Origin: Agromyces aureus
Lineage (GTDB): Bacteria; Actinomycetota; Actinomycetes; Actinomycetales; Microbacteriaceae
NCBI RefSeq assembly: GCF_001660485.1
Contig: NZ_CP013979.1
Span: forward strand, 1,426,001-1,490,000
Reading direction: 5' to 3'
Length of the DNA stretch: 64,000 nt
This document shows positions 1 through 63,363 of this stretch, one piece after another (position 1 is the first letter of the stretch; each line of letters begins with the position of its first letter). Both the position numbers and the translations under genes were made by a program. Under the pieces are notes generated by a model. That model was not told the origin of the DNA and did no database searches. It worked only from the letters and a program-made list of their open reading frames with translations.

Positions 1-1229
1 CGCGGCGCCACGAAGTCCCAGTACTGCCCGACGGTGCCCGCCGGCAGTTCGCGCGAGGCGCCCATCTCGTGCCAGCCGACGACCGTCTTGCCGGTCGCCG
101 CGCCCGCGGCCGTGATGCGCCGCACGAGGTCGAGGTAGTCGGCCTCCGAGGTCGCGAGCGACTCGTCGCCGCCAACGTGCAGCCACGGGCCGGGCGTGAG
201 GTCGGCGACCTCGCCGAGCACGTCGGCGAGGAACCGGTCGGTGACCTCGGCGCGTTCGGGGGTGGCGCAGAGCGACGAGAAGCCGACCTCGATGCCCTCG
301 TACGGTCTGGGTGCGACACCGTCGCAGTTCAGCTCGGGGTAGGCGCTGAGCGCGGCGTTCGTGTGCCCGGGCAGGTCGATCTCGGGCACGACGGTCACGA
401 ACCGTTCGGCGGCGTACTCGACGATGCGCCGGTAGTCGTCCTTCGTGTAGAAGCCCCCGCCGTCGCCCCCGGTCGACGTCGAGGCGCCGATGCCGGTGAG
501 CTCGGGCCACGAGTCGATCTGCAGCCGCCAGCCCTGGTCGTCGGTGAGGTGCAGGTGCAGCACGTTGAGCTTCAGCAGGGCGATGCGGTCGATGTGGTCG
601 AGCACGTCCTCGACCGGGAAGAAGTGGCGCGCGACGTCGAGCATCGAGCCGCGGTAGGCGAACCGGGGCGCGTCGGCGACGGATGCCGCGGGCACGAGCC
701 ATCCGTCGGCGGGCGGCTTCGCGGCATCCGTGCGCTCGATCTCGGCGGGCAGCAGCTGGCGCAACGACTGGCTCGCGCGGAACAGCCCGGCGGGGGTGTC
801 TGCCGCGAGGCGCACGCCGTCGGATCCGGATTCGAGCGTGTACCCCTCCGCCTCGCCGAGGGGCGCGTCGTCGGGCGCCTCGCCCGCGGCGATCACGAAC
901 GAGATGTCGGATGCCGCGGCATCCGCTCCACCCGAGCCCTCGACGACCGGCAGTTCGAAGCCCGTCGACACGCGTGCGAACGCGGCGAAGGTCCGGGCGA
1001 CGGCCGCCGCACCCTCGCCCGTGGCGACGAATCGCGTGTCGGTGTCGAGCGCGAAGGGCGCCCGGTCGGGGTAGTCGGCGCTGATCGGCGCCGGCACGAT
1101 GCCGGTCATGGGTTCTCCGTTCTGGGCCGGTGCGGTGCACGCGGTGAGGGTCGCCGCGGTCACGGCTGCGAGCACGAGTCCGACGAAGAGCACGGGCCGG
1201 CGTGCGATGGTGCGGGTGCGTCGTGGCAT
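1..1229 (-). CDS. Secreted lipoprotein beta-N-acetylhexosaminidase, GH20 (3' end cut by window)
   Basis: Family 20 hexosaminidases remove terminal GlcNAc/GalNAc from chitooligosaccharides or glycans outside the cell. ATG at 1229 follows GAGGA. The N-terminus has Arg residues, a hydrophobic stretch and a lipobox LTAC near residue 31, so it is probably a lipoprotein. The family signature HVGGDES is present, placing the catalytic Asp-Glu pair at about D355-E356; GWHEM further on is also typical. An N-terminal GH20b-like domain precedes the barrel. About 409 codons are visible and the stop lies beyond the left edge. It probably works with the two GH18 chitinases at 23-28 kb, trimming chitobiose, although it is not in their operon. 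The perfect 16-bp GGATGCC palindrome at 909-924 lies inside the coding region. Confidence 0.93.
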
Positions 1230-1400
1230 GCGTCCTCGGGGTGCTCGGGCACCGCGCGGGAATGCGAAGGATTCCTAACACAGCGGCGCGGCTCCCATCT
1301 TGGCATCCGAAGGGCCGCAGCGACAGGGCCGAGCCGGCTGACCCGGTGCCGACGACCGATCCCACGTCGATCCGGATCTCGCGCCCGCGGCATCCGTTGC

Positions 1401-1406
1401 TATGCT
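1401..1406 (+). promoter_or_regulatory. -10 box of glyA-folD
   Basis: TATGCT sits about 7 nt before the first conserved base of the ZTP aptamer, so transcription would begin with the riboswitch. No convincing -35 is visible. Confidence 0.5.
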
Positions 1407-1410
1407 TGCG

Positions 1411-1484
1411 GGGTCGCGACTGGCGTTGAGATGGATTCCCATCGGGGAGCGACTGGCGAGTACCGACCGTACGCCTGGGCCGGT
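1411..1484 (+). promoter_or_regulatory. ZTP (pfl) riboswitch in the glyA leader
   Basis: The conserved blocks of the pfl motif occur in order: GGGTCGCGACTGGCG at 1411, CGGGGAGCG near 1443, and CGCCTGGGC near 1472. GGCG (1422-1425) can pair with CGCC (1472-1475) as the conserved pseudoknot. ZTP riboswitches sense ZMP/ZTP, the purine intermediate that builds up when 10-formyl-THF is short, and are known upstream of folD, glyA and purH. Here the aptamer precedes glyA-folD. About 70 nt separate it from the start codon. A hairpin CCTCGT/ACGAGG around 1492-1515 could be part of the expression platform; that step is inferred. Confidence 0.88.
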
Positions 1485-2831: not shown

Positions 2832-2838
2832 GCCGCCG

Positions 2839-3714
2839 ATGACCGCCATCACGCTCGACGGCGTGGCCACGGCCACCGCCGTCAAGTCCGAGCTGGCGTC
2901 GCGCATCGCGGCGCTCCGCGCGAAGGGCGTCGTGCCCGGCCTCGGCACGCTGCTCGTCGGCGACGACCCGGGTTCGCGCTCGTACGTCGCGGGCAAGCAC
3001 CGCGACTGCGCCGAGGTCGGCATCGAGTCGATCCGGGTCGACCTGCCGGCCACGGCGACCCCGGCCGACGTGCGCGCCGCGATCGCCGACCTGAACGCGG
3101 CATCCGAGGTCACCGGCTACATCGTGCAGCTGCCGCTGCCCGCGGGGCACGACGAGAACGCGATGCTCGAGCTCATCGACCCCGACAAGGACGCCGACGG
3201 CCTGCACCCGACCAACCTCGGGCGGCTCGTGCTCGGCGTCGCGGGCGAGCTCGCGTCGCCGCTGCCGTGCACCCCGGCGGGCATCGTCGAGATGCTGCAG
3301 CGCTACGACGTGCCGATCTCGGGCCGCCACGTCGCGGTCATCGGCCGCGGCATCACGGTCGGGCGCCCGCTCGGCCTGCTGCTGACCCGCAAGGGGCTCG
3401 ACGCGACGGTCACGCTCACGCACTCGCGCACGGTCGACCTGGCCGCGGAGGTGCGCCGCGGCGACATCGTCGTGGCCGCCGTGGGCGTGCCGAACCTGAT
3501 CAGGCCCGACTGGGTCAAGCCGGGTGCCGCGGTTCTCGACGTGGGCATCACGCGCGTCGAGGACCCGGCGACGGGCAAGGGCCGGCTCACGGGCGACGTC
3601 GACCCGGCGGTCGCCGCGGTCGCCGGCCACCTCTCGCCGAACCCCGGCGGCGTCGGGCCGATGACCCGCGCCATGCTGCTCGCGAACGTCGTCAAGGCGG
3701 CCGAGCTCCGGTAG
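2839..3714 (+). CDS. folD: Bifunctional methylenetetrahydrofolate dehydrogenase/cyclohydrolase
   Basis: Oxidises 5,10-methylene-THF with NADP and hydrolyses methenyl-THF to 10-formyl-THF, supplying purine synthesis and formyl-Met. The protein is 291 aa. The catalytic Tyr-x3-Lys is in [17 protein letters not shown]. The substrate motif VQLPLPAG and the Rossmann loop [11 protein letters not shown] are clear, and the C-terminal [13 protein letters not shown] signature is intact. ATG at 2839 was chosen because homology starts at MTAITLDG and it lies 7 nt after glyA; the open frame upstream overlaps glyA. It is co-transcribed with glyA and ends just before a strong hairpin. Confidence 0.97.
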
Positions 3715-3732: not shown

Positions 3733-3766
3733 ACGGATGCCGCGGGCCGACGCCCGCGGCATCCGT
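3733..3766 (+). terminator. Hairpin terminator after folD built from the GGATGCC element
   Basis: Perfect 15-bp arms (acggatgccgcgggc at 3733-3747 and its complement at 3752-3766) enclose a 4-nt loop. Each arm is a copy of the recurrent GGATGCCGCGG element in inverted orientation. There is no U-tract. The next 180 bp up to the nonulosonate genes hold only a short imperfect tandem repeat of GGCTCGGCTGC near 3832-3860. Confidence 0.7.
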
Positions 3767-6135: not shown

Positions 6136-7631
6136 TGTTCGACCGCTCGGTTCCCGGGCACGGCACGGGCACGGCATCGGGGGCGACGGATGCCGCGGGG
6201 CGGCGTCTGCTCGTCGTCGCCGACTCCGACTCGTACGTGAAGTGGGGTGCGGCGCTCGCGTCGACGCTTCCGCCGACGTGGCGGGTGCAGCTCGTGGTGC
6301 TCGCCTCGCCCGTGCAGCCGAGCCCGGCGCAGCTGCGGCACGCGCTCGCGGGCACGAGGTTCTCTCCGTCGCAGGCGGAGGTCGTGCACCTCGACGACCT
6401 CGACGGTCTGCTCGACGTGTTCGATCCGCACGCGGTGCTGCTGTCGCTGCGCGGACCGTTCGTGCGGGTCGTCGCGCCGTTGCTCGAAGGGCGGGCGAAC
6501 CGTCCGGTGCTCGTGAGCGGGTTCCCTGGCCTCACGATCCCGGCCGTGCCGAAGGCCGTGATCTACCGCGAGCAGACCGACCTCGTGGTGCTGCACAGCC
6601 GCCGCGAGGTGCGCGAGTTCCGTGCGAACGCGGCCGAGCTGGGTCTCGGCACGACGTTCGCGCTCGCGACCCTGCCGTTCCTCGCGGGTGCTCCGGCCGA
6701 CCCGGCGACGGACGCCGCGAAGGCCGGGGGCGAGGCGACTCCCACACTCGACGGGGGGCGGACCGCCGAGGCGGCGCACGCGACATCCGCCCCCCGTGTC
6801 GACGGGCCTGCACGGACCGACATCGTCTTCGCGACGCAGGCCAAGGTGCCCGCCTCGCGCGAGGACCGTGTGCACCTGCTCGGCGGCCTGGCCGAGCTTG
6901 CGCGGCGCCGACCCGGGCAGCGCGTCGTCGTGAAGGTGCGCGCCCGCCGCGGCGAGGCGCAGACCCACGACGAGAACTTCGACTACGCCGACCTCCTGCC
7001 CGAGGTCGACCCGCCGGCGAACCTCGTCGTCGAGGACGGCCCGATGGCGGAGAAGCTCGCCACCGCCGCCGCGCTCGTCACGGTGAGCTCGACGGCCGTG
7101 CTCGAGGCGGTCGCGCTCGACCTGCCGGCGCTCGTGATCGACGATTACGGGGTCACGCCCGCGATGATCAACGTCGTCTTCGAGGGGTCGGGGCTGATCG
7201 GGTCGACGGTCGACCTCGTCGAGGGCCGGTTCAAGGCAGCGGATGCCGCGTGGCTGGCCGACAACTACTTCCACGCCGAGGCGGCGGCCGACTGGGTTCG
7301 CCGGCTCGAGTCGTTCGTCGAGGCGCGCGAGCTCGTGCCGCTTCGGCCGTTGCCGCGGCGCCGGGATCTCTCGGGCGGCCTGCTGCGTTCGGCGTTCGAG
7401 CGGCGCCGCATGCTCGGCGACCATGATCGCAGCCTGCTCGGTTCGGTGGCGTGGGGGGTCGGCGTTCCAGTGCGAGGAGCGGTGCGCCGGGTGCGACGCC
7501 TGCGATCGCGCCGCGCGCGCGGCGGCGCACCGGTCGCGGCCGTGCAGCGCACGCCGGGGTGGACGGCCGTGGCCGCTGCCGGGACCTCAGCCGACGGAGG
7601 CCGCGTGCCGCTCGACATGGCCGAGGTATGA
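6135..7631 (+). CDS. Putative glycosyltransferase of the nonulosonate operon
   Basis: 498 aa, starting at ATG 6135 in a TGATG overlap with the synthase gene. The N-terminal half begins RRLLVVADSDSYVKWGAALA and the C-terminal half contains VVEDGPMAEKLATAAALVTV and SSTAVLEAVALDLPALVIDD, a GT-B-like nucleotide-sugar pocket reminiscent of polysialyl- and CDP-glycerol polymer transferases. Residues about 185-230 are a low-complexity Ala/Pro/Asp linker between the two halves. I recall related actinobacterial proteins being annotated as DUF6716 glycosyltransferases, but could not check. Its operon position suggests it transfers or polymerises the CMP-activated sugar. The last 45 nt overlap the convergent carbonic anhydrase gene. 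Confidence 0.72.
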   Translation: MFDRSVPGHGTGTASGATDAAGRRLLVVADSDSYVKWGAALASTLPPTWRVQLVVLASPVQPSPAQLRHALAGTRFSPSQAEVVHLDDLDGLLDVFDPHAVLLSLRGPFVRVVAPLLEGRANRPVLVSGFPGLTIPAVPKAVIYREQTDLVVLHSRREVREFRANAAELGLGTTFALATLPFLAGAPADPATDAAKAGGEATPTLDGGRTAEAAHATSAPRVDGPARTDIVFATQAKVPASREDRVHLLGGLAELARRRPGQRVVVKVRARRGEAQTHDENFDYADLLPEVDPPANLVVEDGPMAEKLATAAALVTVSSTAVLEAVALDLPALVIDDYGVTPAMINVVFEGSGLIGSTVDLVEGRFKAADAAWLADNYFHAEAAADWVRRLESFVEARELVPLRPLPRRRDLSGGLLRSAFERRRMLGDHDRSLLGSVAWGVGVPVRGAVRRVRRLRSRRARGGAPVAAVQRTPGWTAVAAAGTSADGGRVPLDMAEV

Positions 7632-9447: not shown

Positions 9448-9520
9448 GGTCGGCACCCTACGGCATGCGGATGTCGCGGCGGTGGCGCGCGGCATCCGCT
9501 CGCGTTCGTAGGATCGACCC

Positions 9521-11790: not shown

Positions 11791-13031
11791 GCGCGGGTTC
11801 CTTCGGTGTCTGATGCGGTCCCGGATGCCGCGGCATCCGTCGTCGTGGTGTGCGCGTTCGCCGTGGTCGGAGTCGCCCTGGTCGCCGTCTCGTCGCTCGC
11901 GGCGGCCGCGATCGCGGTTCGGAGCGCTTCGGCCGCGGTCTCGGGGGCGACGTCGCCGATCCAGGCGCCCTTGGCCGCCTCGGACCCGGCGAGGAACTTG
12001 AGCTTGTCGGCCGCACGGCGCGGGCTCGTGATCTGGAGCATGAGCCGCACGTCGTCGCGGTGCTCGTGCACGGGGGCCTGGTGCCAGGCCGCGATGTAGG
12101 GCGTGGGGGAGTCGTAGATCCGGTCGATGCCGCGCAGCAGCTGCAGGTAGAGGCCCGCCAGCTCATCGCGCTCGTCGAGGGTCGTCGCGGCGAAGTCGGG
12201 AACGTGGCGGTGGGGCAGCAGGTGCACCTCGATGGGCCAGCGCGCGGCGAACGGCACGAACGCGGTCCAGTGCTCGCCCGAGAGCAGCACGCGCGGGCCG
12301 TTGCGCTCGCGCTCGAGGACGTCGGCCATGAGCGTGGGGCCGTAGTCGTCGATCGCCGCGAGCAGGCGCTCGGTGCGCGGCGTGATGTAGGGGTAGGAGT
12401 AGATCTGGCCGTGCGGGTGCGGCAGCGTGACGCCGATCTCGCGGCCGCGGTTCTCGAACGGGAACACCTCCTGCACGCCGGGCAGCGCGGAGAGCGCTGC
12501 GGTGCGGTGCGCCCACGCCTCGATCACGGTGCGCGCCCGCGAACGCGAGAGGGAGCCGAACGAGCCCTCGTGCGCCGGGCTGAAGCACACGACCTCGCAG
12601 CGGCCGATCGAGGTCTTCGTACGCTCGAGGCCGACCCGGCGCAGGTCTGCGAGCGCTTCGGCGTCGGAGGTGCCGGGCTCGGCGAGGGCGGGCCCGAACG
12701 AGGGGGAGCGGTTCTCGAACACGGCGACGTCGTAGACGCTCGGGATCTCGGAGGGGTTGTCGGGCGTCTGCGGGGCGAGCGGGTCGAGGTGGGCCGGCGG
12801 CAGCATGACGCGGTTCTGGCGGGCCGCCGCGATCGAGACCCACTCGCCGGTGAGGGGATCTTGACGCATGTGCGCGTTCGCGGGGCGCGCGTCGAGCGTG
12901 CGCGCGTCGACCGACCGCTCGGCGTCGAGCGTCGTGTCGGCGTCGTCGAAGTAGATGAGGTCGCGGCCGTCGGCGAGCTTCGCGGGGCGCACGGCGATGG
13001 CGGGGTCGAAGACCGGTTCGGTGTCAAGCAC
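11787..13031 (-). CDS. galT: Galactose-1-phosphate uridylyltransferase
   Basis: Transfers UMP from UDP-glucose to galactose-1-phosphate. 414 aa. The catalytic HPH is in LPHPHGQIYSYPY; ENRSPSFGP, EVVCFSPAHEGSF and the C-terminal histidine motif WPIEVHLLPHRHV are conserved. The protein carries an Ala/Thr-rich tail of about 40 residues, containing a GGATGCC palindrome (11823-11838), that galT proteins do not need. The start is GTG at 13031, 6 nt after a TACAGT -10 box, so leaderless. The open frame upstream of this is antisense to deoR and was not used. First gene of galTK. Confidence 0.95.
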
Positions 13032-13113: not shown

Positions 13114-13947
13114 ATGACGGATGCCCCACTCACCGCCCTCGAGCGCCGCGAGCGCGCCCTCGGGCTCGTTGCCGAACGCGGCTTCGTGCGCGTCGCCGAA
13201 CTGAGCGACGTCTTCGGCGTCACCACGGTCACCGCCCGCGCCGACCTCGACGCGCTCGAGCGCGCGGGCTCCATCCGGCGCGTGCATGGGGGAGCCGTGC
13301 CCACGTCGTCGCTCATCGCGGTCGAGCGGCCCGATCGCGAGCCGAGCTTCGAAGAGGCGCTCGCGGCATCCGTCGAACCGAAGCGCCGCATCGGCGTGCA
13401 TGCGGCCTCGCTCGTGCGCAACGGGCAGAGCATCATCCTCGACGTCGGCACGACCACGCTGCAGATCGCTCGGGCACTCCGCGCTCGCCACGACCTCGAC
13501 GACCTCACCGTCTTCACCAACGGGCTGTCGATCGCGCTCGAACTCGAGGCGGAGATCCCGCGGTTCACCGTCATCGTCACGGGTGGCAGCCTGCGACCGA
13601 AGCAGCACTCCCTCGTGCATCCGCTCGCGGGAGCGATGCTCGCCGAGGTGCACGTCGACGTCGCGTTCATCGGGTGCAACGGGGTCGACCCCATGCACGG
13701 CGTCACGAACTCGAACCTCCCCGAAGCGTCGGTGAAGGCCCTCATGCTCCGGTCCGCCGCGCGGTCGGTCGTCGTCGCCGACGGCTCGAAGCTCGGCGAG
13801 GTCCACCTCGGCCGCATCGCCGCCGTCGACGCGTTCGACACCCTCATCACGGATGCCGCGGCACCCGCCCAGCTCATCGCCGAGCTGGGCGAGGCCGGCC
13901 TCGCGACGGCGATCGCAGGAGACCCGGAGCCGGGGGATGAACCCTAG
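13114..13947 (+). CDS. DeoR-family repressor, probably of galactose genes
   Basis: 277 aa. The N-terminal DeoR winged helix (RRERALGLVAERGFVRVAEL, then TTVTARADLDALERAGSIRR and HGGA) is followed by the DeoRC sugar-phosphate sensor domain: SIILDVGTTTLQIARAL, TVFTNGLSIALEL, TGGSLRPKQHSLVHPLA and VADGSKLGE. Members repress sugar operons and are released by a sugar phosphate. It is divergent from galTK, with two repeated sites in the 82-bp gap, and 9 nt ahead of galM, so control of galactose metabolism is a strong inference. ATG at 13114 was chosen from homology; upstream codons overlap the operator region. Confidence 0.92.
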   Translation: MTDAPLTALERRERALGLVAERGFVRVAELSDVFGVTTVTARADLDALERAGSIRRVHGGAVPTSSLIAVERPDREPSFEEALAASVEPKRRIGVHAASLVRNGQSIILDVGTTTLQIARALRARHDLDDLTVFTNGLSIALELEAEIPRFTVIVTGGSLRPKQHSLVHPLAGAMLAEVHVDVAFIGCNGVDPMHGVTNSNLPEASVKALMLRSAARSVVVADGSKLGEVHLGRIAAVDAFDTLITDAAAPAQLIAELGEAGLATAIAGDPEPGDEP

Positions 13948-14901: not shown

Positions 14902-16080
14902 TCAGCCGGTCGTGCAACTGCCGGAGTCGACCGCCCGGTCGAGCGACGAAGCGCTGCCCGCGAAGGCGTTCAGCGTCGACACCGGAATGGCAAACCCCAC
15001 GTTCTCGACGGCTTCCGACTTGGCGAACACCACCCCCGCGACGGTGCCGTCGCCCGTGAGCACCGGGCCGCCCGAGTTGCCGTGGTCGACGTCGGCCGCG
15101 AGCGTCATGACATCGCGCGTGGAGGTGCCGTCGGCCTCGCGGAACGTCACCGGTCCGACCGACATGACCCGCCCCGGCCGCAGTTCGAGCGGACCGCCGA
15201 ACGGGTAACCCGCCACCGCGACGTCCGTGCCGGCTGCGGCATCCGTCACCGGCAGTGCGGCCGCGTCGAGTCCGTCGACGGCGATGACCGCGAGGTCGAG
15301 GTCGGCGTCGAATGCGACGATCCGGCCAGATCGGGCGGTGAGCCCCGGCGTCTCGACGACGGGCTCGTCGACCCCCGCGACGACGTGCGCGTTCGTCACG
15401 ATGCGGTCGGGGGCGATCACGAACCCGCTGCCCGACATCGACACGCCGCACTCGAAGGCCGTTCCGGTGACCCTGACGACGGATGCCGCGGCCTGCGCGA
15501 TCTCGGGATCGTCGACGCCGCCCGACGGGAGGGTCGGCGGCACCGCCGGCACCTCGAGCACGTCGACGAGCCAGGGGAGCGCCTCGCCGACGGCCGCGGA
15601 CCGCACCTCGGCGAGGAACCGCTGCGCCGGCGTCGGCGTCAGCGCCTCGATCGTGCCGAGCACGCGGGAACCGGCGATCGCGGGCGAGACGACCGGCACG
15701 CCCATCGCGGAGACGCCGGAGGCGACGAGCATCACGACGAACACCGTCACGAGCAGGTTGCCGACCGCGCCGAGCACGCGGTCGACGACGCCGAGCTTCA
15801 CGGCCTCCGCGCCGCGGCCGAGGACCGCACCCAGAGCGCCGCCCGCGGTGCCGCCGATCGAGATCAGCACGAGCGCCGCACCGATGGCCGCCGGCGCTCG
15901 CCACTCGGGAGCCGAGACCAGGCCCATGACCCATGGCATCACGAAGGCCGCCGCGACCGCGCCGAGCAGCACGCCGATCAGGCCGGCGGCCGTGCGCAGC
16001 AGGCCCGTGCGGTAGCCGTTCGCGACGGCGCCGATGAACACGAGCACCAGCAGCACGTCGAGCAGCAGGCTCCAGCCCAT
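14902..16080 (-). CDS. Membrane-anchored serine protease, MarP-like (CvpA-type membrane domain + trypsin-like domain)
   Basis: 392 aa. The first about 150 residues hold four hydrophobic helices of CvpA type (MGWSLLLDVLLVLVFIGAVA). After a linker, a chymotrypsin-fold protease follows with the triad in NAHVV (His, about residue 232), DLDLAVI (Asp) and DHGNSGGPVL (Ser, about residue 334). This architecture matches mycobacterial MarP, a periplasmic protease needed for acid and oxidative stress resistance. Two Cys near the protease ends may form a disulfide. ATG at 16080 has GGAGGA 4 nt upstream. The long open frame before it lacks coding-like character and was not included. Confidence 0.88.
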   Translation of the reverse strand: MGWSLLLDVLLVLVFIGAVANGYRTGLLRTAAGLIGVLLGAVAAAFVMPWVMGLVSAPEWRAPAAIGAALVLISIGGTAGGALGAVLGRGAEAVKLGVVDRVLGAVGNLLVTVFVVMLVASGVSAMGVPVVSPAIAGSRVLGTIEALTPTPAQRFLAEVRSAAVGEALPWLVDVLEVPAVPPTLPSGGVDDPEIAQAAASVVRVTGTAFECGVSMSGSGFVIAPDRIVTNAHVVAGVDEPVVETPGLTARSGRIVAFDADLDLAVIAVDGLDAAALPVTDAAAGTDVAVAGYPFGGPLELRPGRVMSVGPVTFREADGTSTRDVMTLAADVDHGNSGGPVLTGDGTVAGVVFAKSEAVENVGFAIPVSTLNAFAGSASSLDRAVDSGSCTTG

Positions 16081-16363: not shown

Positions 16364-17413
16364 ATGCGCGTCGGGATGTTCCTGAACTATGCGGGCGGGT
16401 TCCGCGAGGCGGCCGACGAGGTCGCCGAACTCGAGCAGGCGGGCGTCGACCTCATCGCCGTGCCGGAGGCGTACTCGTTCGACGCCGTCAGCCAACTCGG
16501 ATTCCTCGCGGCGCGCACGTCGAAGATCACGCTGGCCTCCGGCATCCTGCAGCTGTACACGCGCACCCCCACGCTCACGGCGATGACCGCCGCCGGACTC
16601 GACTACGTCTCCGGTGGCCGATTCGAGCTCGGCATCGGCGCCTCCGGGCCGCAGGTCATCGAGGGGTTCCACGGCGTGCGCTACGACGCCCCGCTCGGCC
16701 GTACGCGCGAGATCATCGAGATCTGCCGCATGACCTGGCGGCGCGAGCTGGTCGTGCACGCCGGGCGCAACTACGCGATCCCGCTGCCCGCCGGCGAGGG
16801 CACCGGGCTCGGCAAGCCGCTGAAGCTCATCAACCACCCCGTGCGCGAGCGCATCCCGATCACGGTCGCCTCGCTCGGCCAGAAGTCCGTCGAGCAGACC
16901 GCCGAGATCGCCGACGGATGGCTGCCGATGTTCTTCCACCCCGAGAAGGCGACGGGGGTCTGGGGCGACGCGCTGGCGGCCGGTACGGCGAAGCGATCGG
17001 GCGACCTCGCCCCGCTCGACGTGTTCGCCAGCCCCGCGCTCGCGATCACCGAGGATCCCGCGCTCACCGCACTCGCGCTCGCGGCCGCGAAACCGCAGCT
17101 CGCGCTCTACGTCGGCGGCATGGGCGCGCGCGGCAAGAACTTCTACAATCACCTCGTCGCGAGCTACGGCTTCGAAGCGGATGCCGCGCGCATCCAGGAC
17201 CTCTACCTCGAGGGTCGCCGCGAGGAGGCCGTGGCGGCCGTGCCCGACGAGCTCGTGCGCGCGATCTCGCTCATCGGCTCGCCTTCGGAGGTGGCTGAGC
17301 GTGTCGCGGCGTTCCGGCAGGCGGGCGTCACCACGCTCGCGGTCACGCCGCTCGCTCGCAACTCCGCCGAGCGCATCGCGCTCATGTCGGGCTTCCGCTC
17401 GATCGTCGGCTGA
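16364..17413 (+). CDS. LLM-class (luciferase-like) F420-dependent oxidoreductase
   Basis: 349-aa TIM-barrel protein of the luciferase-like monooxygenase family, F420-dependent branch. Typical features: AADEVAELEQAGVDLIAVPE with the early acidic pair, FLAARTSKITLASGILQLYT, RTPTLTAMTAAGLDYVSGGR, FELGIGASGPQVIEGFHG and ITVASLGQKSVEQTAEIADG. It resembles mycobacterial F420 enzymes of the Rv3520c type; the substrate is unknown. ATG at 16364 is preceded by GAGGAG at a good distance. A hairpin at 17423-17449 follows. Confidence 0.87.
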   Translation: MRVGMFLNYAGGFREAADEVAELEQAGVDLIAVPEAYSFDAVSQLGFLAARTSKITLASGILQLYTRTPTLTAMTAAGLDYVSGGRFELGIGASGPQVIEGFHGVRYDAPLGRTREIIEICRMTWRRELVVHAGRNYAIPLPAGEGTGLGKPLKLINHPVRERIPITVASLGQKSVEQTAEIADGWLPMFFHPEKATGVWGDALAAGTAKRSGDLAPLDVFASPALAITEDPALTALALAAAKPQLALYVGGMGARGKNFYNHLVASYGFEADAARIQDLYLEGRREEAVAAVPDELVRAISLIGSPSEVAERVAAFRQAGVTTLAVTPLARNSAERIALMSGFRSIVG

Positions 17414-19175: not shown

Positions 19176-19195
19176 GCGGATGCCGCGGCATCCGC
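19176..19195. repeat. Perfect 20-bp palindrome GCGGATGCCGCGGCATCCGC
   Basis: Intergenic, between the unknown protein and pabC. It is the fullest copy of the element that recurs all over the window. The rest of the 351-bp gap holds the candidate structured RNA listed next and the pabC -10 box. Confidence 0.95.
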
Positions 19196-19345: not shown

Positions 19346-19465
19346 CTTCATGCCTTCGGGCGCGTTCTGGCGCGGCCCGCATGCCGTCCGGTGGCTGACG
19401 GCGAGCGTGCATGGGCGTGCGACGGGTGTGCGGGGCCGTCCGCGGCATCCGCGTAGCATCGTGGC

Positions 19466-25824: not shown

Positions 25825-25911
25825 CCGCGTCCGGGCGACGAATCCCATCCCCATCGTCGTCCGGATGCCGCGGGCGGGGCCGCATCCATCGTCCCCGCCC
25901 GGTTCCACCCA

Positions 25912-26097: not shown

Positions 26098-27975
<1,878 letters not shown>

Positions 27976-27997: not shown

Positions 27998-28033
27998 CGG
28001 ATGCCCCGGAGCGAACTCGCTCCGGGGCATCCG
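27998..28033. terminator. Bidirectional terminator between chitinase and pstB
   Basis: Perfect 17-bp arms starting cggatgccccggagcga, 2-nt loop, between convergent genes. The outer part of both arms is the GGATGCC element. Confidence 0.8.
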
Positions 28034-28067
28034 TGTTCATGCCGGCTCTCTCAGCCGCGGCATCCGA

Positions 28068-39479: not shown

Positions 39480-39581
39480 GCGTCAAGTCTGCCAGCAGCG
39501 GCCGACCGCGGCATCCGCCCCCGGGTGACGTCGATCGACGGGCGGCGAAGACGGAGGATGCCTCACGGCTAGGCTGGACGC

Positions 39582-43368: not shown

Positions 43369-43818
43369 TTACGGGGCGAGGCCCGGGTAGAGGCGGTCGT
43401 CGAGCACGGGGATCTGCTTCTCGATGCCCTCTTCGCTCGCGTACTGGAAGAAGATCGGGGTCAGGCCGCCGACCTCGGCGTCGATGCCCTCGAGCAGCAG
43501 CGGCTCGGTCTCCTCGCCGCCGAGCACGACGGTCTCGTTCGCGGCGACCTCGAGCTCCTGTGTGGCCGAGCCGGCCTCGATCTTCAGGGTCTGGTCGTCG
43601 TCGCCGGTGTTGACCACGGTCATCACGAGGTTGCCGTCGACGCCGTCTTCGCTCACCACGAGGATGTTGCGCAGGTCGAGGTCGCCGACCGTGACCGAGA
43701 CGCCGTCGCTCGCGTCGTAGTGCTCGGTGGTCGCCTGGTAGGTGACCATCGAGCAGCCGGTCGCGCCGATGGCGAGACCCAGGGCCAGAACAGCGGATGC
43801 CGCGAGACGCGCCTTCAC
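43369..43818 (-). CDS. LpqE-like lipoprotein
   Basis: 149 aa with a signal peptide and a lipobox ATGC (Cys about residue 22). The mature part, DLDLRNILVVSEDGVDGNLV then MTVVNTGDDDQTLKI, predicts an immunoglobulin-like beta-sandwich outside the membrane. In mycobacteria the lipoprotein LpqE lies next to carD-ispD-ispF-cysS, exactly as here, so it is probably its counterpart. Function is unknown. It is divergent from carD, with a 158-bp gap between the two start codons. Confidence 0.82.
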   Translation of the reverse strand: MKARLAASAVLALGLAIGATGCSMVTYQATTEHYDASDGVSVTVGDLDLRNILVVSEDGVDGNLVMTVVNTGDDDQTLKIEAGSATQELEVAANETVVLGGEETEPLLLEGIDAEVGGLTPIFFQYASEEGIEKQIPVLDDRLYPGLAP

Positions 43819-44549: not shown

Positions 44550-45800
44550 ATGAGTTCGTCGACCGTCGCCGTCATCCTGGTCGCCGCGGGCAGCGGCACG
44601 CGCCTCGGCCACGCCGAGCCCAAGGCCTTCGTGCCGCTCGGCGAATCCACGATCCTCGGGGTCGCCCTCGATGCCGTGCTGGGCATGCACGAGACGCCGC
44701 ACGTCGTCGTCGTCGCTCCGGCAGACCGCGTCGCCGAGGTGCAGGTGCGCTTCGCGGAGGTCGCGGCCGCGGCATCCGCCCCGTTCGACGTCGTGCCGGG
44801 CGGCGCGTCGCGTCAGGATTCGGTCGAGGCCGGACTCGCCGTGCTGCCGAGACTCGTCGACACCGTCCTCGTGCACGATGCGGCTCGCCCGCTCACCCCG
44901 TCGCTGGTCTTCGACGAGGTCGCCGCCGCCGTGCGCTCGCGCGGTCACGGCATCGTGCCGGGCCTCCCCGTGGTCGACACGATCAAGCGCATCGAGGGCG
45001 GTCATGTGGTCTCGACCGTCGACCGATCGGTGCTCGCGGCGGTGCAGACCCCGCAGGGCTTCCCGCGCGAGGATCTCGACGATGCCTTCGCGTCCGCCGA
45101 TCCGACGTTCGAGTACACCGACGACGCCGCGATCGCCGCGGCGGCCGGGTTCACCGTCGACCTCGTGCCCGGTGACGCGCGAGGCTTCAAGATCACCGTG
45201 CCGGAAGACCTCCGGCGAGCCGAGCAGCACTTGGGCGTCGCACCGCACGTCCGCCCCGACGGGGAACGCGCGGTGGCCCCGGCCTCGCACCCGGCCGAGC
45301 TCGGCACGCCCGCCGTCGCGCCGCCCGCATCTCGCATCGGCACCGGGGTCGACGTGCACGCGTTCGCCGACGACCCGGCCACGCCGCTCTGGCTCGCGGG
45401 CCTCGAATGGCCGGGTGAGCGCGGGCTCTCGGGGCATTCCGACGGCGACGCCGCCGCGCACGCGATCTGCGACGCCCTGCTCGCGGCCGCCGGCCTCGGT
45501 GACGTCGGCGCGATCTTCGGCACCGCCGACCCGCGATTCGCCGCGGCGCACGGCGAGGTGTTCCTCGCCGAGACGCGACGGCTGGTCGAGGCATCCGGAT
45601 TCCGCATCGTGAACGTGACCGTGCAGATCGTGGGCAACCGCCCGAAGCTCGCCCCACGCAGGGCCGAGGCCGAGGCCCTCCTGTCGCATGTGCTCGGCGC
45701 TCCCGTGTCGGTGGCCGCCACCACGACCGACGGCCTCGGCTTCACCGGCCGCGGCGAGGGCGTCTCGGCGCTGGCCACCGCACTGCTCGCGACGCCCTGA
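44550..45800 (+). CDS. ispDF: Bifunctional IspD-IspF, MEP isoprenoid pathway
   Basis: 416-aa fusion. Residues about 1-230: IspD, which makes CDP-ME from CTP and MEP ([34 protein letters not shown]). A Pro/Ala linker of about 35 residues follows. Residues about 262-416: IspF, which cyclises CDP-ME2P to MEcPP (GTGVDVHAF metal site, [36 protein letters not shown]). The missing middle enzyme IspE is not in the window. TAGGCT (44538-44543) 6 nt before ATG indicates a leaderless start. Separate ispD and ispF in mycobacteria occupy the same place. Confidence 0.96.
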
Positions 45801-45847: not shown

Positions 45848-47257
45848 GTGACCGTGCGACTCTACGATTCGAAGGCTCAGGCCCTGCGTGACTTCGTGCC
45901 CCTCCAAGAGGGACACGTCGGCATGTACGTCTGCGGTCCGACCGTGCAGTCGAGCCCGCACATCGGTCATCTCCGCAGCGCGCTCGTTTACGACATCCTC
46001 CGCCGCTGGTTCTCGTACCGCGGGTACGACGTGGCGTTCGTGCGCAACGTCACCGACATCGACGACAAGATCCTCGACGCCGCGACGGGAGAGCAGTGGT
46101 GGGCGCTGGCCTACCGCGTCGAGCTCGAGTTCCAGGCCGCCTACGCCTCGCTCGGCATCCTGCCTCCGACGTACGAACCGCGCGCGACCGCGAGCGTGCA
46201 GCAGATGCAGGAACTGATCACCCGGCTCATCGAGCGCGGGCACGCGTACGCGGCTCCGGATGCCTCGGGCGACGTGTACTTCGACACCGCGAGCTGGCCG
46301 GCCTACGGCGAGCTCACGCGCCAGGCGCGCGACAACATGGAGGCCGCGGCCGACGCCGACCCGCGCGGCAAGCGCGACCCCCGAGACTTCGCCCTCTGGA
46401 AGGGTCGCAAGGCCGACGAGCCCGCGTCCGCATCGTGGGCGTCGCCGTGGGGTGACGGCCGGCCCGGCTGGCACATCGAGTGCTCGGCCATGGCGAGCCG
46501 CTACCTCGGCACCGAGTTCGACATCCACGGGGGCGGTCTCGACCTGCGCTTCCCGCACCACGAGAACGAGCTCGCGCAGTCCACGGCGGCCGGTCACGGC
46601 TACGCCCGCTACTGGGTGCACAACGGGCTCGTGAACACCGGCGGGCAGAAGATGTCCAAGTCGCTCGGCAACTCCGTGTTCGCCGCCGAGCTGCTCGAAC
46701 TCGCCTCCCCGCTCGCGGTGCGCTACCTGCTCGGCGCCGCGCACTACCGCTCGACGCTCGACTACTCGCCCGGCTCGCTCGCCGAGGCCGAGGCGGCCGT
46801 CGATCGCATCCGCACGTTCCTCGAGCGCGTCGAACGACGCCTCGCGGGCACGCGTTACGAGGGCGTCGGCGCTCCCGTGATCCCCGACGCGTTCGCCGCA
46901 GCCATGGACGACGACCTGGGCGTGCCCCAGGCGATCGCCGTGCTGCACGACACCGTCCGCGCCGGCAACCAGGCGCTCGACGCCGACGAACTCCACGACG
47001 CCGCGGCGCTGCACGGGCAGGTCGCCGCCATGGCGGGCGTGCTCGGCATCGACCCCCGCGACGCCAGGTGGAGCCCGGACGCCGCGCCCGCGGCATCCGC
47101 CCTCGACACCCTCGTGACCAGACTCATCGAGGATCGCCAGGCGGCTCGTGCAGCGAAGGACTTCGCAGCCGCAGACCGCATCCGCGACGAACTCTCGTCA
47201 GCGGGCATCACCATCGAAGACAGCCAGACCGGCACACATTGGAGCTTGGAATCATGA
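45848..47257 (+). CDS. cysS: Cysteinyl-tRNA synthetase
   Basis: 469-aa class I synthetase. The zinc/cysteine site is in [10 protein letters not shown], the HIGH box in [14 protein letters not shown], and KMSKS in [27 protein letters not shown] and [11 protein letters not shown] supply other zinc ligands. It charges tRNA-Cys in the cytosol. The start is GTG at 45848, 6 nt after TAGGCT (45836-45841), a leaderless start. It overlaps rlmB by four bases (ATGA). The anticodon-binding C-terminal part is complete. Confidence 0.97.
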
Positions 47258-52227: not shown

Positions 52228-52300
52228 GCCGGCTTGGCGCAATTGGTAGCGCACCGCTCTTGTAAAGCGGGGGTTGCGGGTTCGAGTCCCGCAGCCGGCA
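52228..52300 (+). tRNA. tRNA-Thr(TGT)
   Basis: 73-nt cloverleaf. Acceptor GCCGGCT/AGCCGGC plus discriminator A, D-arm GCGCAATTGGTAGCGC, anticodon loop CTTGTAA with anticodon TGT, T-arm GGGTTCGAGTCCC. CCA is not encoded. Confidence 0.97.
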
Positions 52301-52301
52301 C

Positions 52302-53459: not shown

Positions 53460-54006
53460 GCCTCGCGGCGGCGTCGATCGGCTTGAGCCGCTCGACACGA
53501 CGTCGCTCGGGCTTGCCGCCCACGTAGAGCCAGCCGAGCAGGGCCTCGTTCGGCCTCAGGCCGTGAGCCGCCGAGACGGCCGGATGCCGCGTGTACGGGC
53601 CCGTGCGCCACAGCACGCCCCAGCCGGCCTCGTCGAGCAGCAGGCTGAGCAGGTGCGCGACGCCGGCCGCCGTGGCGTCCTGCTCCCACTCGGGCACCTT
53701 GGCGTAGTCGGGCGTGTGCACGGCGACCACCGCGAGCAGCAGGGGCGCGCGCAGCGGCTTGGTCGCGAGCTTCGCGGCTCCGCGCGGATCGGCGGCTTCG
53801 AGCCCGGACGCCAGGGCGAGTGCGGATCCGAGGCGATCGCGGGCCTCGCCCCGGAGCGCGACGACGCGCCACGGACGCAGTGATGCGTGGTCGGCGACGC
53901 GCCCGGCCGCGCCGAGCAACTCGAGGAGCTCGGCATCGTCGGGTGCGGCATCCGTCACCTTGGAGACCGACCTGCGGACGAGTGCGGCCTCGAGCGCGGG
54001 CCGCAT
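53443..54006 (-). CDS. Nitroreductase family protein
   Basis: 187-aa FMN-dependent nitroreductase-fold protein. ALVRRSVSKVTD supplies the FMN-phosphate Arg residues, LRPWRVVALRG follows helix 3, and EWEQDATAAGVAHLLSLLLD and WRTGPYTRHPAV belong to the FMN face. The substrate is unknown: small nitroaromatics, quinones or flavin. It lies 2 nt after msrB, in the same operon, suggesting a redox-repair role. The start ATG 54006 was chosen since homology begins at MRPALEAALVRRS. Confidence 0.85.
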   Translation of the reverse strand: MRPALEAALVRRSVSKVTDAAPDDAELLELLGAAGRVADHASLRPWRVVALRGEARDRLGSALALASGLEAADPRGAAKLATKPLRAPLLLAVVAVHTPDYAKVPEWEQDATAAGVAHLLSLLLDEAGWGVLWRTGPYTRHPAVSAAHGLRPNEALLGWLYVGGKPERRRVERLKPIDAAARLTTLD

Positions 54007-55975: not shown

Positions 55976-57034
55976 ATGGCGAGGCGGGGCGGTTCTGCCG
56001 GAAGGCGGCAGGCGCGGTTCGTGCTGCTCGCGGCATCCGCCCTCCTATTCGTCGGATGCAGCGCCGATGCGCCGTTCGTCGCCACCCCGTCACCCACGCC
56101 GACGGCCGACGCCCGACCGATCGGTGAGTCGGCCACGCCGATGGCCCTCGCGTTCGCGCCGCTGCGGGGCACCCGGGCCGACTGGGCCGCGATGCAGCAT
56201 CCGTCGATCGCCGCGAAGATCGACAATCACGAGGAGGCGCGACCGCAGGTCGCGCTGAACCGCACCGACATCGTGTTCGAGGAGCTCGTCGAGGGCGGCC
56301 TCACGCGGTACGTGGCGATCTGGCACTCGGACATGCCCCCCGAGATCGGGCCCGTGCGCTCGATCCGACCCATGGACCCAGATATCGCGACGCCGTTCGG
56401 CGGCATGATCGCGTACTCGGGCGGTCAGGAGATCTTCGTCGAGATGATGCAGGCGACCCCGCTCGTGAACCTCGTCTTCGACTACGACGACACCGGCCTC
56501 TTCTCGAGGGCCGATGAGCGACCCGGCCCGCACGACGTGATCCTCGACGCGGAGGAGGCGCTGAGCCGCAACGCCGCGCTCGCCCCGCCGCCGGTGCAGT
56601 TCGTGTACGGCGGCACGGATCCGCTCGCCGATCCTGCGCTCGCGGCAACGCCGACGACGACGATCTCGCAGGTCTTCTCGGAGGAGCGGTTCCCGTCGTG
56701 GACGTGGGATGCCGCGGCATCCGTCTGGCTCAGGTCGCAGGAGGGCGCGCCCGACCTCGACGACGCGGGTGCACAGGTGCACGCGGTGAACGTCGTGACC
56801 ATGCGGGTCGACATCGACTGGCAGTACGGCGAGGTGCCGAAGACCGTGATGGTCGGCGCCGGCGAGGCGTGGATCTCGGTGGCCGGGCGTACCGCGCACG
56901 GCACGTGGTCGAAGGGCGCCCGCGAGGCGCCGATCGTGTTCACGGCCGACAACGGCGCGCCGTTGCGACTGGCGCCGGGCAACACGTGGATCGAGCTCGT
57001 GCCGACGACCGGATCGGTGACGTTCGCGCCCTGA
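55976..57034 (+). CDS. DUF3048 (YerB-like) lipoprotein
   Basis: 352 aa. A basic N-terminus and hydrophobic segment with lipobox FVGC (Cys near residue 27) predict an anchored lipoprotein. The body starts AAKIDNHEEARPQVALNRTD, then IVFEELVEGGLTRYVAIWHS, EIGPVRSIRPMD, all characteristic of DUF3048, and the second domain has GTWSKGAREAPIVFTADNGA and LAPGNTWIELVP. Function unknown; B. subtilis YerB is a homologue. ATG 55976 is likely; GTG 55970 is also possible. A GGATGCC palindrome (56707-56722) lies in the coding region. Confidence 0.88.
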   Translation: MARRGGSAGRRQARFVLLAASALLFVGCSADAPFVATPSPTPTADARPIGESATPMALAFAPLRGTRADWAAMQHPSIAAKIDNHEEARPQVALNRTDIVFEELVEGGLTRYVAIWHSDMPPEIGPVRSIRPMDPDIATPFGGMIAYSGGQEIFVEMMQATPLVNLVFDYDDTGLFSRADERPGPHDVILDAEEALSRNAALAPPPVQFVYGGTDPLADPALAATPTTTISQVFSEERFPSWTWDAAASVWLRSQEGAPDLDDAGAQVHAVNVVTMRVDIDWQYGEVPKTVMVGAGEAWISVAGRTAHGTWSKGAREAPIVFTADNGAPLRLAPGNTWIELVPTTGSVTFAP

Positions 57035-57108: not shown

Positions 57109-58797
<1,689 letters not shown>

Positions 58798-61258: not shown

Positions 61259-61289
61259 AGCGGGGCGAGTCTAAGTGGTGGACCCTGAG

Positions 61290-61988
61290 TCAGGGCTTGG
61301 AGGCCGAGGACTTCAGCATGTACCCGAACCCGCGCTTCGTCTGGATCAGCGGCTCGGTCGAGTGCTGGTCGAGCTTTCGCCGCAGGTAGGAGATGTAGCT
61401 CTCGACGATGCCGGCGTCGCCGTTGAAGTCGTACTCCCAGACGTGGTCGAGGATCTGCGCCTTCGAGAGCACCCGGTTCGGGTTCAGCATGAGGTAGCGC
61501 AGCAGCTTGAACTCGGTGGGGGAGAGCTCGACGGGCACGTCGCTCACGAGCACCTCGTGGGTGTCCTGATCCATGACGAGCTCGCCGGTGCGGATGACGG
61601 CATCTTCTTCGGCGTGCATCGTGCGGCGCAGGATGGCCTTGATGCGCGCGACGATCTCGTCGAGGCTGAACGGCTTGGTGACGTAGTCGTCGCCGCCGAC
61701 CGTCAGACCCGTGATCTTGTCTTCGGTGTCGTCCTTCGCCGTGAGGAACAGGATCGGCGCCGTGTAGCCGGCCGAACGCAGGCGTTTGGTGACGCCGAAG
61801 CCGTTCATGTCGGGCAGCATGACGTCGAGGATGATCAGGTCGGGTTCCTCTTCGAGGACCGCCGAGATCGTCTGGGCGCCGTTGCCGACCGCTCGCACGG
61901 CGAAGCCGGCGAAGCGGAGGCTCGTGGTCAGCAGGTCGCGGATGTTGGGCTCGTCATCGACGATGAGAATGCGTGGTCCATCGCTCAT
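61290..61988 (-). CDS. OmpR-family response regulator
   Basis: 232 aa. Receiver: ILIVDDEPNIRDLLTTSLRF with the acidic pair, LIILDVMLPDMNGFG with phospho-Asp, FLTAKDDTEDKITG and DDYVTKPFSLDEI. Winged helix: LSPTEFKLLRYLMLNPNRVL, HVWEYDFNGDAGIVESYISY, LRRKLD, RGFGYML. It regulates genes together with the kinase that follows. ATG 61988 (MSDGPRILIV) is preferred because AGAAG lies at a suitable distance; ATG 61997 is possible. In the leader on the minus strand GTTCAGGAAAGTTCCAG may be a direct-repeat self-binding site. Confidence 0.93.
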   Translation of the reverse strand: MSDGPRILIVDDEPNIRDLLTTSLRFAGFAVRAVGNGAQTISAVLEEEPDLIILDVMLPDMNGFGVTKRLRSAGYTAPILFLTAKDDTEDKITGLTVGGDDYVTKPFSLDEIVARIKAILRRTMHAEEDAVIRTGELVMDQDTHEVLVSDVPVELSPTEFKLLRYLMLNPNRVLSKAQILDHVWEYDFNGDAGIVESYISYLRRKLDQHSTEPLIQTKRGFGYMLKSSASKP

Positions 61989-62076
61989 GTTGACCATCTT
62001 CTGCGCACTGGCTGGAACTTTCCTGAACATTCTTCGAGGGTCGTGAAATCCGTGCGCCGAATGGAACACTTGGCCT

Positions 62077-63363
62077 ATGGCCTCACATGAGCGAGTGGTC
62101 GTGGTCGGCGGCGGTCTGACAGCGGCTTCGGCGGTGGATTCGGTCCGCGAGGCGGGCTTCGACGGCGAGGTCGTGGTCGTCGCCGACGAGCGCCGCCCGC
62201 CGCATGAGCGACCGCCGCTCTCGAAGGGCTACCTGAACGGGTCGGATGCCGCGAGCAGCGTCTACCCGCACGATCGCCGCTGGTACGGGCGGCACGGCAT
62301 CGACCTGCGGCTCGGCACGAGCGCGGTCGCACTCGATCCAGCGGCGCACACGGTCGAGGTCGAGGGCGCGGACGGCGTGCACGCCACGCTCGACTACGAC
62401 CGGCTGCTGCTCGCGACGGGTGCGCGCCCGCGCCGGTTCACCGGTCCCGGTGCCGGAGTCGGCGGGGTGCACGTGCTCCGCACGCTGCCCGATTCGACGA
62501 GGTTGCGCACGGCGCTCCGCCGCGGCGACCGGCGGGTCGTGGTGGTCGGCGGCGGCTGGATCGGTCTCGAGGTCGCGGCGGCCGCGCGCGGCTACGGCAA
62601 CGAGGTGACCGTCGTCGTCCGGGGCGAGGAGCCCCTCGAAGCCGCGATCGGTCGAGGTGTCGGCAGCATGTTCCGGGGGCTGCACGAGCAGCACGGCGTC
62701 GTGATCCGCGGTGGGGCGGCCGTCACGGCACTCCGGGGCGAGCGGGGCAAGGTCGCTGCGGTCGTGCTCGGCACCGGTGAGCAGATCGAGGCCGACCTGG
62801 TGGTGTTCGGCATCGGCGCGATCCCGAACGTCGAGCTCGCGACATCCGCCGGCCTGCGCGTCGATGACGGCATCGTGACCGATGCCTCGTTCCGCACGAG
62901 TGCGGCCGACGTGTTCGCCGCCGGCGACGTGGCCTCGGTCTGGAACCCCGTGCTCGAGCGGCACCTGCGCGTCGAGCACTGGGCGAACGCGCTGGCGAGC
63001 GGGGCCGCGGCCGGCCGCGCGCTCGCCGGCGAGCCGGTCGTCTTCGACGAGCTGCCGTACTTCTTCACCGACCAGTACGACCTCGGCATGGAGTATTCGG
63101 GCTACGGAGACCTCGCGGCCGGCGCCGAGCTCGTCGTGCGCGGCGACGTGCCCCTCACCGCGGCGTTCGCGGCCGACACCGAGCGGCAGGGCATCGTCTT
63201 CTGGCTCGCGGCCGACGGTCGCGTCGTGGCCGGCATGAACGTCAACGTGTGGGACGTGAACGAGCAGGTGCAACGGTTGATCAGGTCGGGGCGGGTGGTC
63301 TCGCGCGACGAACTCGCCGACCCGTCGGTGCCGCTCGACGCGCTCGCCGGGGACGCCTCGTGA
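62077..63363 (+). CDS. FAD-dependent pyridine nucleotide-disulfide-type oxidoreductase (ferredoxin reductase-like)
   Basis: 428 aa. FAD-binding VVVVGGGLTAASAVDSVREA near the N-terminus, LLATGARPRR, NAD(P)-binding VVVVGGGWIGLEVAAAARGY, and the second FAD motif VFAAGDVASVWNP. The C-terminal reductase domain (FFTDQYDLGMEYSGYGDL) follows. No active-site Cys pair is present, so it belongs with ferredoxin/rubredoxin reductases of oxygenase systems rather than with disulfide reductases. The partner ferredoxin is unknown. It overlaps the folP-like gene by four bases (GTGA), so both are coupled. Confidence 0.92.
   Translation: MASHERVVVVGGGLTAASAVDSVREAGFDGEVVVVADERRPPHERPPLSKGYLNGSDAASSVYPHDRRWYGRHGIDLRLGTSAVALDPAAHTVEVEGADGVHATLDYDRLLLATGARPRRFTGPGAGVGGVHVLRTLPDSTRLRTALRRGDRRVVVVGGGWIGLEVAAAARGYGNEVTVVVRGEEPLEAAIGRGVGSMFRGLHEQHGVVIRGGAAVTALRGERGKVAAVVLGTGEQIEADLVVFGIGAIPNVELATSAGLRVDDGIVTDASFRTSAADVFAAGDVASVWNPVLERHLRVEHWANALASGAAAGRALAGEPVVFDELPYFFTDQYDLGMEYSGYGDLAAGAELVVRGDVPLTAAFAADTERQGIVFWLAADGRVVAGMNVNVWDVNEQVQRLIRSGRVVSRDELADPSVPLDALAGDAS

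Follow-up and report, generated by a model that had tools for sequence, protein, structure and literature searches.

Why should a stretch of the Agromyces aureus chromosome carry GGATGCC many times more often than chance allows, and what kind of element is being repeated? In the 64,000 nucleotides analysed here (contig NZ_CP013979.1, positions 1,426,001 to 1,490,000; hereafter the window), a first-pass annotation had described a 16-bp palindrome built on this heptamer and had likened it to the cyanobacterial highly iterated palindrome 1 (HIP1) or to DNA uptake sequences. Our analysis identifies the repeated unit as an asymmetric 12-mer, CGGATGCCGCGG, and suggests that, on balance, this is probably the local spelling of a tag that resembles DNA uptake sequences, is used by Microbacteriaceae, and is spread by biased DNA uptake.

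The window contains 84 copies of GGATGCC on both strands (about 75 in the first-pass annotation), compared with a mean of 12.2 and a maximum of 26 in shuffled sequences. The four copies of the 16-mer lie exactly where they had been reported (909-924, 11823-11838, 19178-19193, and 56707-56722), and none was seen in 100 dinucleotide shuffles. A local effect, one way in which the reported excess could have dissolved, is rejected, as the genome (4,373,124 bases) has 92 copies of the 16-mer (reversed control, 0) and GGATGCC holds a density of 0.9 to 1.8 per kb, with no regional concentration, across 21 stretches (the window and 20 stretches of 20 kb; 464 kb in all, here called the sample). Genome-wide (4.37 Mb), the 12-mer has 1,276 copies against 10 for its reversed form, and the core 8-mer CGGATGCC has 4,101 against 225. 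In 4-kb tiles, GGATGCC is evenly spread (index of dispersion, 1.01; 116 tiles), and tiles of low G+C content are poorer in it, an effect that is confounded by composition.

The second way in which the excess could have dissolved is as a by-product of base composition or of codon or dipeptide usage. Asp-Ala-Ala and Ala-Ala-Ser are frequent peptides of this proteome, and an order-3 Markov model accounts for about one in four to five GGATGCC copies genome-wide, so that some of the 84 in the window are chance occurrences. However, permuting synonymous codons inside each predicted gene with the protein held constant (60 shuffles; genes predicted by a simple rule of G+C content by codon position) gave a mean of 177 GGATGCC in the coding sequence of the sample where 506 are observed, 11.8 copies of the 11-mer CGGATGCCGCG where 176 are observed, and 0.0 copies of the 16-mer where 7 are observed. 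The observed counts also exceed a junction-aware version of this shuffle and the Markov expectation, and the density between genes and the restriction to one family, both described below, speak against composition as well. Codon or dipeptide usage is rejected as the cause on the strength of the codon-shuffle control, and we give composition in general next to no credence; the over-representation is real, genome-wide, and beyond codon or dipeptide usage. Two other words also stood above the synonymous-codon shuffle in coding sequence, namely, GATCGCGA (227 versus 120) and GAGTCCGA (63 versus 29.5).

The word had also been described as nearly absent from about 31.0-37.7 kb and 56.8-62.2 kb. The first of these does hold just 2 copies where 8.9 are expected (P about 0.007), and the second 1 copy where 7.2 are expected (P about 0.006; both stretches were picked post hoc), although there is no overall clustering. 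The gene at 57130-58797, within the second stretch, has no copy and is the best conserved among 44 genes tested, which would fit functional constraint, and the 8 best conserved genes together carry 2 copies against 9.7 expected (genes picked post hoc).

What is iterated is not the palindrome itself. The asymmetric, non-palindromic CGGATGCCGCGG is the top 12-mer in the sample, with 139 copies against 1.2 expected from the order-3 Markov model. Single changes within its GGATG leave mostly few copies or none, near background, and changes at positions 7, 9, 11, and 12 are still frequent, with 16 to 45 copies for the commonest. The 16-mer consists of two 12-mers placed head-to-head with CCGCGG in common; convergent pairs at an offset of 9 number 14, and this arrangement makes up 14 of the 40 convergent pairs within 60 bases. 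The palindrome, being one of several head-to-head arrangements, is therefore rejected as the basic unit. Because the unit is asymmetric, HIP1 is the poorer of the two comparisons drawn in the first-pass annotation, and it is the likeness to uptake sequences that stands. A strict inner core (GGATG) combined with species dialects is a trait of such sequences that we find here, and the dialects may follow lineages.

The copies in the window to which we refer are given below in window coordinates; spans without a sign are unstranded, and here and throughout, G-numbers denote comparison genomes.

681..62250, span of all 84 GGATGCC cores
908..925, two head-to-head 12-mers sharing CCGCGG; the 16-mer at 909-924 plus one base on each side
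11822..11839, two head-to-head 12-mers sharing CCGCGG; the 16-mer at 11823-11838
19177..19194, two head-to-head 12-mers sharing CCGCGG; the 16-mer at 19178-19193; intergenic hairpin 63 bases past a predicted gene end (-15.5 kcal/mol, z -4.0)
56707..56723, the 16-mer at 56707-56722, its right half a full 12-mer (56712-56723, minus)
3734..3765, head-to-head 12-mers forming a long hairpin 20 bases past a predicted gene end (-34.1 kcal/mol, z -6.5); at the orthologous place in G240, CCGG replaces GCGG in both arms
27999..28032, head-to-head pair with a CCCGG extension (GGATGCCCCGG...CCGGGGCATCC); hairpin 23 bases past a predicted gene end (-39.3 kcal/mol, z -9.2)
680..730, head-to-head CGGATGCCGCG pair in coding sequence, 680-690 (+) and 720-730 (-)
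1386..1396 (-), CGGATGCCGCG (12-mer 1385-1396); ortholog in G240, GGATGCCTCGC
3096..3106 (-), CGGATGCCGCG
6187..6197 (+), CGGATGCCGCG (12-mer 6187-6198); extension TC in G079
7240..7250 (+), CGGATGCCGCG
9488..9498 (-), CGGATGCCGCG
13362..13372 (-), CGGATGCCGCG
13850..13860 (+), CGGATGCCGCG (12-mer to 13861); GGATGCCTCCG in G240
15480..15490 (+), CGGATGCCGCG (12-mer to 15491)
17178..17188 (+), CGGATGCCGCG
19441..19451 (-), CGGATGCCGCG (12-mer 19440-19451)
21196..21206 (+), CGGATGCCGCG (12-mer to 21207)
22518..22528 (-), CGGATGCCGCG
25862..25872 (+), CGGATGCCGCG (12-mer to 25873)
27227..27237 (+), CGGATGCCGCG
28056..28066 (-), CGGATGCCGCG (12-mer 28055-28066)
37755..37765 (+), CGGATGCCGCG
39507..39517 (-), CGGATGCCGCG (12-mer 39506-39517)
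41578..41588 (-), CGGATGCCGCG
42435..42445 (+), CGGATGCCGCG (12-mer to 42446); after GGATGCC, TCGG in G079 and TCCG in G240
43794..43804 (+), CGGATGCCGCG; after GGATGCC, ACGA in G079
44768..44778 (-), CGGATGCCGCG (12-mer 44767-44778)
47089..47099 (-), CGGATGCCGCG (12-mer 47088-47099)
53581..53591 (+), CGGATGCCGCG; after GGATGCC, TCGT in G240
56029..56039 (-), CGGATGCCGCG
62243..62253 (+), CGGATGCCGCG; after GGATGCC, TCG in G079 and TCCT in G240

The window also carries genes for tRNA-Lys (ttt; 17739-17812, minus) and tRNA-Thr (tgt; 52228-52301, plus).

As had been noted from the window, copies are seen in coding, intergenic, and hairpin positions. In the sample, predicted genes contain 173 of the 246 copies of the 11-mer, in both orientations and mainly in the frames that read Asp-Ala-Ala, Ala-Ala-Ser, and Arg-Gly-Ile-Arg, and 73 lie outside predicted genes, in 12% of the sequence. 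Between genes, their density is highest where two 3' ends face each other (1.88 per kb), lower where a 3' end is followed by a 5' end (1.37), and lowest between two 5' ends (0.39). Pairs within 60 bases are convergent in 40 cases, divergent in 13, and on the same strand in 17, and three intergenic head-to-head pairs in the window fold strongly. The genome of the window thereby displays two further traits of uptake sequences, an intergenic excess and terminator-like head-to-head hairpins. It could be argued from the strong folds, and from a hand count in which 18 of 23 intergenic convergent pairs stand no more than 63 bases behind a gene end, that the copies spread as hairpin terminators or as small repeat elements. 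However, most 11-mers are inside predicted genes, few are paired, and when non-kept aligned sites were examined in four relatives, 32 of 36 comparisons (some sites being counted repeatedly) differed by substitutions only, 16 of these 32 by a single base. Inserted repeat elements are thus rejected as the source, and the mode of change is mainly point mutation, as it is for uptake sequences. A terminator or repeat origin is largely refuted as the driver, and we hold it to be very improbable; terminator function may be a side use.

Another chromosomal machine, be it one reading a Chi-like recombination signal or a nucleoid or segregation protein, might bind the word, with selection maintaining each site. 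The even spread over tiles and the conservation above control words in close relatives, described below, would suit such a role. Chi-like signals or FtsK orienting polar sequences (KOPS) are expected to be strongly oriented, however, and the 12-mer shows no strong replication orientation, with 652 copies on one strand and 624 on the other (reversed control, 4 and 6) in a chromosome whose origin and terminus are unmapped. The lack of regional concentration in the 21 stretches, together with wholesale turnover and respelling between congeneric species, also argues against this explanation, which we regard as quite unlikely.

How far does the word extend beyond this genome? Of 299 family genomes, 79 contain the 16-mer and 269 the 12-mer, most of the latter in few copies. 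A survey of CGGATGCC across 248 genomes of the order showed it to be at least 7-fold more frequent than its reversed control among family members in 16 of 18 cases (2.6- and 3.7-fold in the remaining two), whereas none of the 230 genomes that represent 19 other families reaches this level, the ratio there ranging from about 0.3 to 4; the reversed control contains TAG, which is rare in such genes, so that the ratios are inflated equally in every genome. In 80 further family genomes, the ratio was above 7-fold in 32, between 3- and 7-fold in 23, and below 3-fold in 25. At the level of the order, the word is restricted to one family. That it would be found in Microbacteriaceae had been expected, and among 80 listed of at least 120 stretches with the 16-mer, 67 come from Microbacterium (44), Agromyces (17), Cryobacterium (4), Rhodoglobus (1), or an Actinomycetales metagenome-assembled genome (1), with 13 from others. 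With the 16-mer masked, the flanks remain enriched in Microbacterium (4.3-fold), Agromyces (3.9-fold), and Cryobacterium (4.6-fold), with 2.0-fold at two loci from metagenome-assembled genomes and 1.1-fold at 13 loci of other taxa. Enrichment is slight or absent in two Microbacterium phages, which have 16 and 14 copies of GGATGCC against 10.7 and 13.0 expected and no copy of the 11-mer; the 16-mer occurs in 6 stretches of a viral collection, a raw number that is not normalized. A literature search, in which subscription journals lay mostly outside the coverage, listed no paper that describes such a motif in Microbacteriaceae.

The word is spelled in several ways, and neither these dialects nor the second word described below are visible from one genome alone. 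The GCGG dialect is found in G000, G339, G302, G142, and G336. Congeneric species with few 12-mers have many cores, with a different extension. The TCGG dialect is that of G079, where CGGATGCCTC occurs 39 times against 1.1 expected and CGGATGCCCC 26 times against 1.0, and G240 mixes the two spellings (TC form, 43 versus 1.5; GC form, 37 versus 4.4). In a codon shuffle, the TCG form likewise stands out, with 57 coding copies against 2.7 in G079 and 34 against 1.1 in G240. The extension is weak beyond GGATGCCG in G106; G063 has a GCAG spelling, CGGATGCCGCAG, and G001 a GCC/GCT spelling, CGGATGCCGCC or GCT. G063 (L276-L280, L260) also contains the repeats CGCTCAGGGCTT and CTCAAGCCAGCG, at 11 to 12 copies in 113 kb, which resemble a separate repeat family. 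The respelling can be followed at single sites in alignments of G079 and G240 to the window (79% identity), as the G that follows GGATGCC in the window is T at 3 of 14 kept core sites in G079 and at 6 of 22 in G240, A at 2 in G079, and C at 2 in G240, these last two being the arms of the 3735-3764 hairpin. Within the GCGG dialect, sites are conserved above control words, with 11-mers kept at 26 of 34 sites in G339 (31% for shuffled words), 29 of 34 in G302 (36%), 25 of 35 in G142 (24%), and 19 of 32 in G336 (9%). In G316, just 3 of 11 are kept (8%).

A second word, GGATCC, is in excess in three of the four core-poor genomes sampled at 113 kb, with 154 copies against 46 in a codon shuffle in G034, 145 against 53 in G164, and 97 against 34 in G004. 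MGGATCCG occurs 3,530, 4,246, and 1,971 times, respectively, in these whole genomes and does not exceed 273 per Mb in any of the 34 genomes where CGGATGCC is denser than 400 per Mb, counts of the GGATCGCC type being left out of this comparison. G164 is congeneric with the GGATGCC-rich G106, G215, G258, and others. In most sampled GGATGCC-rich genomes, GGATCC is below its Markov expectation, mostly 0.2- to 0.8-fold (1.0 in G063). The fourth core-poor genome, G045, has no clear GGATCC excess in its 113 kb; a repeat with CGCGAGATGCCA and AAGTGGCATCTC is present there in 14 to 16 copies (L318-L322, L268). Only the GGATCC class has a palindromic core, and its flanks in G004 are non-palindromic.

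The main alternative to uptake is a HIP1-like system, in which a solitary methyltransferase, or a reader of its mark, would recognize the GGAT-type core, methylated sites being kept for repair, replication, or chromosome organization and the outer bases reflecting the preferences of partner proteins. A PF01555 adenine-type methyltransferase was found in all 27 genomes tested (24 GGATGCC-rich, 3 GGATCC). C5 and Eco57I-type methyltransferases are rejected as a universal reader (PF00145 in 15 of 27 genomes, PF07669 in 18 of 27). The PF01555 enzyme has M.RsrI and CcrM as its nearest solved relatives, a type II methyltransferase as its best PADLOC model (494 bits), and named best relatives that are mostly from Agromyces. 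The 6 kb that surround this gene in G000, judged by reading the frames with no family search, showed no restriction gene; the methyltransferase gene lies at L333:2375-3244 (+), adjoined by a lipoate-ligase-like frame and with a transporter-like frame in the same 6 kb (by eye). In an alignment, no column separates the 3 GGATCC from the 17 GGATGCC sequences (130 of 341 columns are invariant), and the region between the DPPF and QKP motifs, where we take target reading to reside, is nearly unchanged between genomes with the two words. The known targets of methyltransferases of this type are shorter than the 12 bases found here. Similar to HIP1 and the alternate HIPs, the word reaches about one core per kb, its core tolerates change less than its ends, with deviations at outer positions, another GC-rich word takes its place in some genomes, and a methyltransferase is conserved in the genomes tested; GGATCC, a palindrome with GATC inside, can be compared to the alternate HIP GGGATCCC (PMC4390886, drawn on, like the sources below, in excerpt). 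HIPs and their extensions are palindromic, however, whereas the GGATGCC unit is not and its extensions break symmetry, and alternate HIPs bring their own matching methyltransferase (PMC4390886), whereas the enzyme here does not change with the word. We consider a HIP1-like system unlikely, if still to be reckoned with.

In the excerpts at hand, sequence-specific DNA uptake is named only for the Pasteurellaceae and Neisseriaceae (PMC5031613, 2016; PMC7811141, 2020), and uptake sequences are portrayed as words that lack palindromic symmetry, combine a strict core with dialects, are denser between genes, stand partly in inverted pairs at terminators, and arise by point mutation (PMC12616744, PMC1939737, PMC3630211, PMC5031613, PMC7811141). 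The present word resembles the DNA uptake sequence of Neisseriaceae as an asymmetric 12- to 13-mer with a strict inner core, species dialects, and hundreds to thousands of copies, which lie in genes, are denser between them, and form terminator-like hairpins when head-to-head (PMC3630211, PMC12616744, PMC1939737, PMC5031613). It differs in its unrelated sequence, its actinobacterial host, a type IV pilus ATPase that is not universal among carriers, the core-palindromic GGATCC class, and the fact that no ComP-type receptor was found. The uptake signal sequence of Pasteurellaceae, a 9- to 10-mer with a conserved GCGG core, is comparable in having two dialects and evolving by point mutation (PMC12616744, PMC7811141) and is unlike the present word in core and host; more spellings are found here, even within one genus. 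Micrococcus luteus is transformed by an Flp/Tad-pilus competence system that uses comEA/comEC and no comG cluster (PMC6370729), and ComEC and PF00437 ATPases are present in the genomes examined here; the excerpted account of that system makes no mention of an uptake sequence (PMC6370729). Overall, the word fits uptake sequences on most testable points and HIPs on core constraint, density, and the conserved methyltransferase.

On the uptake reading that we favor, competent cells would bind and import tagged DNA preferentially, and homologous recombination would then let tagged alleles replace untagged ones. Copies would be born by point mutation and pile up where protein or regulatory constraint permits. 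A putative surface DNA receptor, making strict contact with a GGAT-type core and looser contacts on the 3' side, would set the spelling, and a change in this receptor could let the word drift to a new dialect (GCGG, TCGG, GCC, or GGATCC). Head-to-head copies behind genes would form hairpins and possibly serve as transcription terminators, as in Neisseria. Uptake bias, receptor, recombination drive, and terminator function are all what we infer from the pattern of copies. We know of no test of uptake in Agromyces. A Microbacterium is reported among the organisms transformed by an added plasmid in a chromosome conformation capture (Hi-C) study (PMC10257627, in excerpt).

Several results weigh against this reading. 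ComEC is present in 57 of 57 family genomes, so the competence machinery is there, but core-rich and core-poor genomes have it alike, and ComEC presence is rejected as a separator of the two. In one core-poor genome, the ComEC match falls into two adjoining pieces, possibly through a frameshift (G285:C1:2981383-2982173). Of 20 loci, 8 matched the ComEA pattern, including 3 core-poor ones, and no receptor candidate separated rich from poor genomes among the few families searched. A large PF00437 match (at least 454 bits), read as the type IV pilus ATPase, was found for 20 of the 31 core-rich genomes and for 9 of the 26 core-poor ones (P 0.034); this ATPase is weakly associated with core richness and not needed for it, and a type IV pilus is rejected as a necessary reader. 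Weaker PF00437 matches, read as Flp/Tad type, are widespread among the matches listed. At G000:C1:3455424-3457764, PilB- and PilT-like PF00437 matches adjoin, and the large one is absent from four close core-rich relatives, G142, G280, G079, and G240. The methyltransferase conserved in every genome tested suits the HIP1-like alternative.

The remaining points concern the sites themselves. Conservation at orthologous positions, which the first-pass annotation had singled out for checking, holds within the GCGG dialect but is not clear across dialects, as cores are kept at 14 of 58 sites in G079 (29% for control words) and 22 of 59 in G240 (28%); with retention this near to that of control words, sites evidently turn over. 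No general trade-off links GGATGCC and GGATCC (rho -0.15, P 0.19; 75 genomes), and both words are scarce in G546, G051, G035, and G020. An intergenic excess stands out clearly only in the genome of the window and not in G106 or G079. The strand of the motif leans with the chromosome half (P 0.04 for 11-mers, with 66 of 147 and 58 of 99 copies on the plus strand in the two sampled halves; P 0.007 for 7-mers), parallel to gene orientation, and intergenic copies lean to the same strand side too, in small numbers. Finally, the effect of constraint on copy number is weak (rho -0.25, P 0.10; 44 genes).

We are evenly divided on a wider proposal, namely, that the Microbacteriaceae have independently evolved a code for recognizing their own DNA during uptake, which would be the third of its kind and the first among Gram-positive-type bacteria. 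It would comprise several dialects of a single core, with GGATCC having replaced that core in some lineages, once within a genus, and with dialect shifts acting as barriers to gene exchange. If the methyltransferase explanation were true instead, this would be a HIP-like system outside the cyanobacteria. If the uptake reading is true, the origin, spread, and respelling of such tags could be tested independently on a third case, found in a large family of environmental actinobacteria, and this case would point to a DNA receptor on cells that lack an outer membrane. Dialect limits on recombination between species would then be directly testable, and hard-to-engineer genera would become transformable with tagged DNA.

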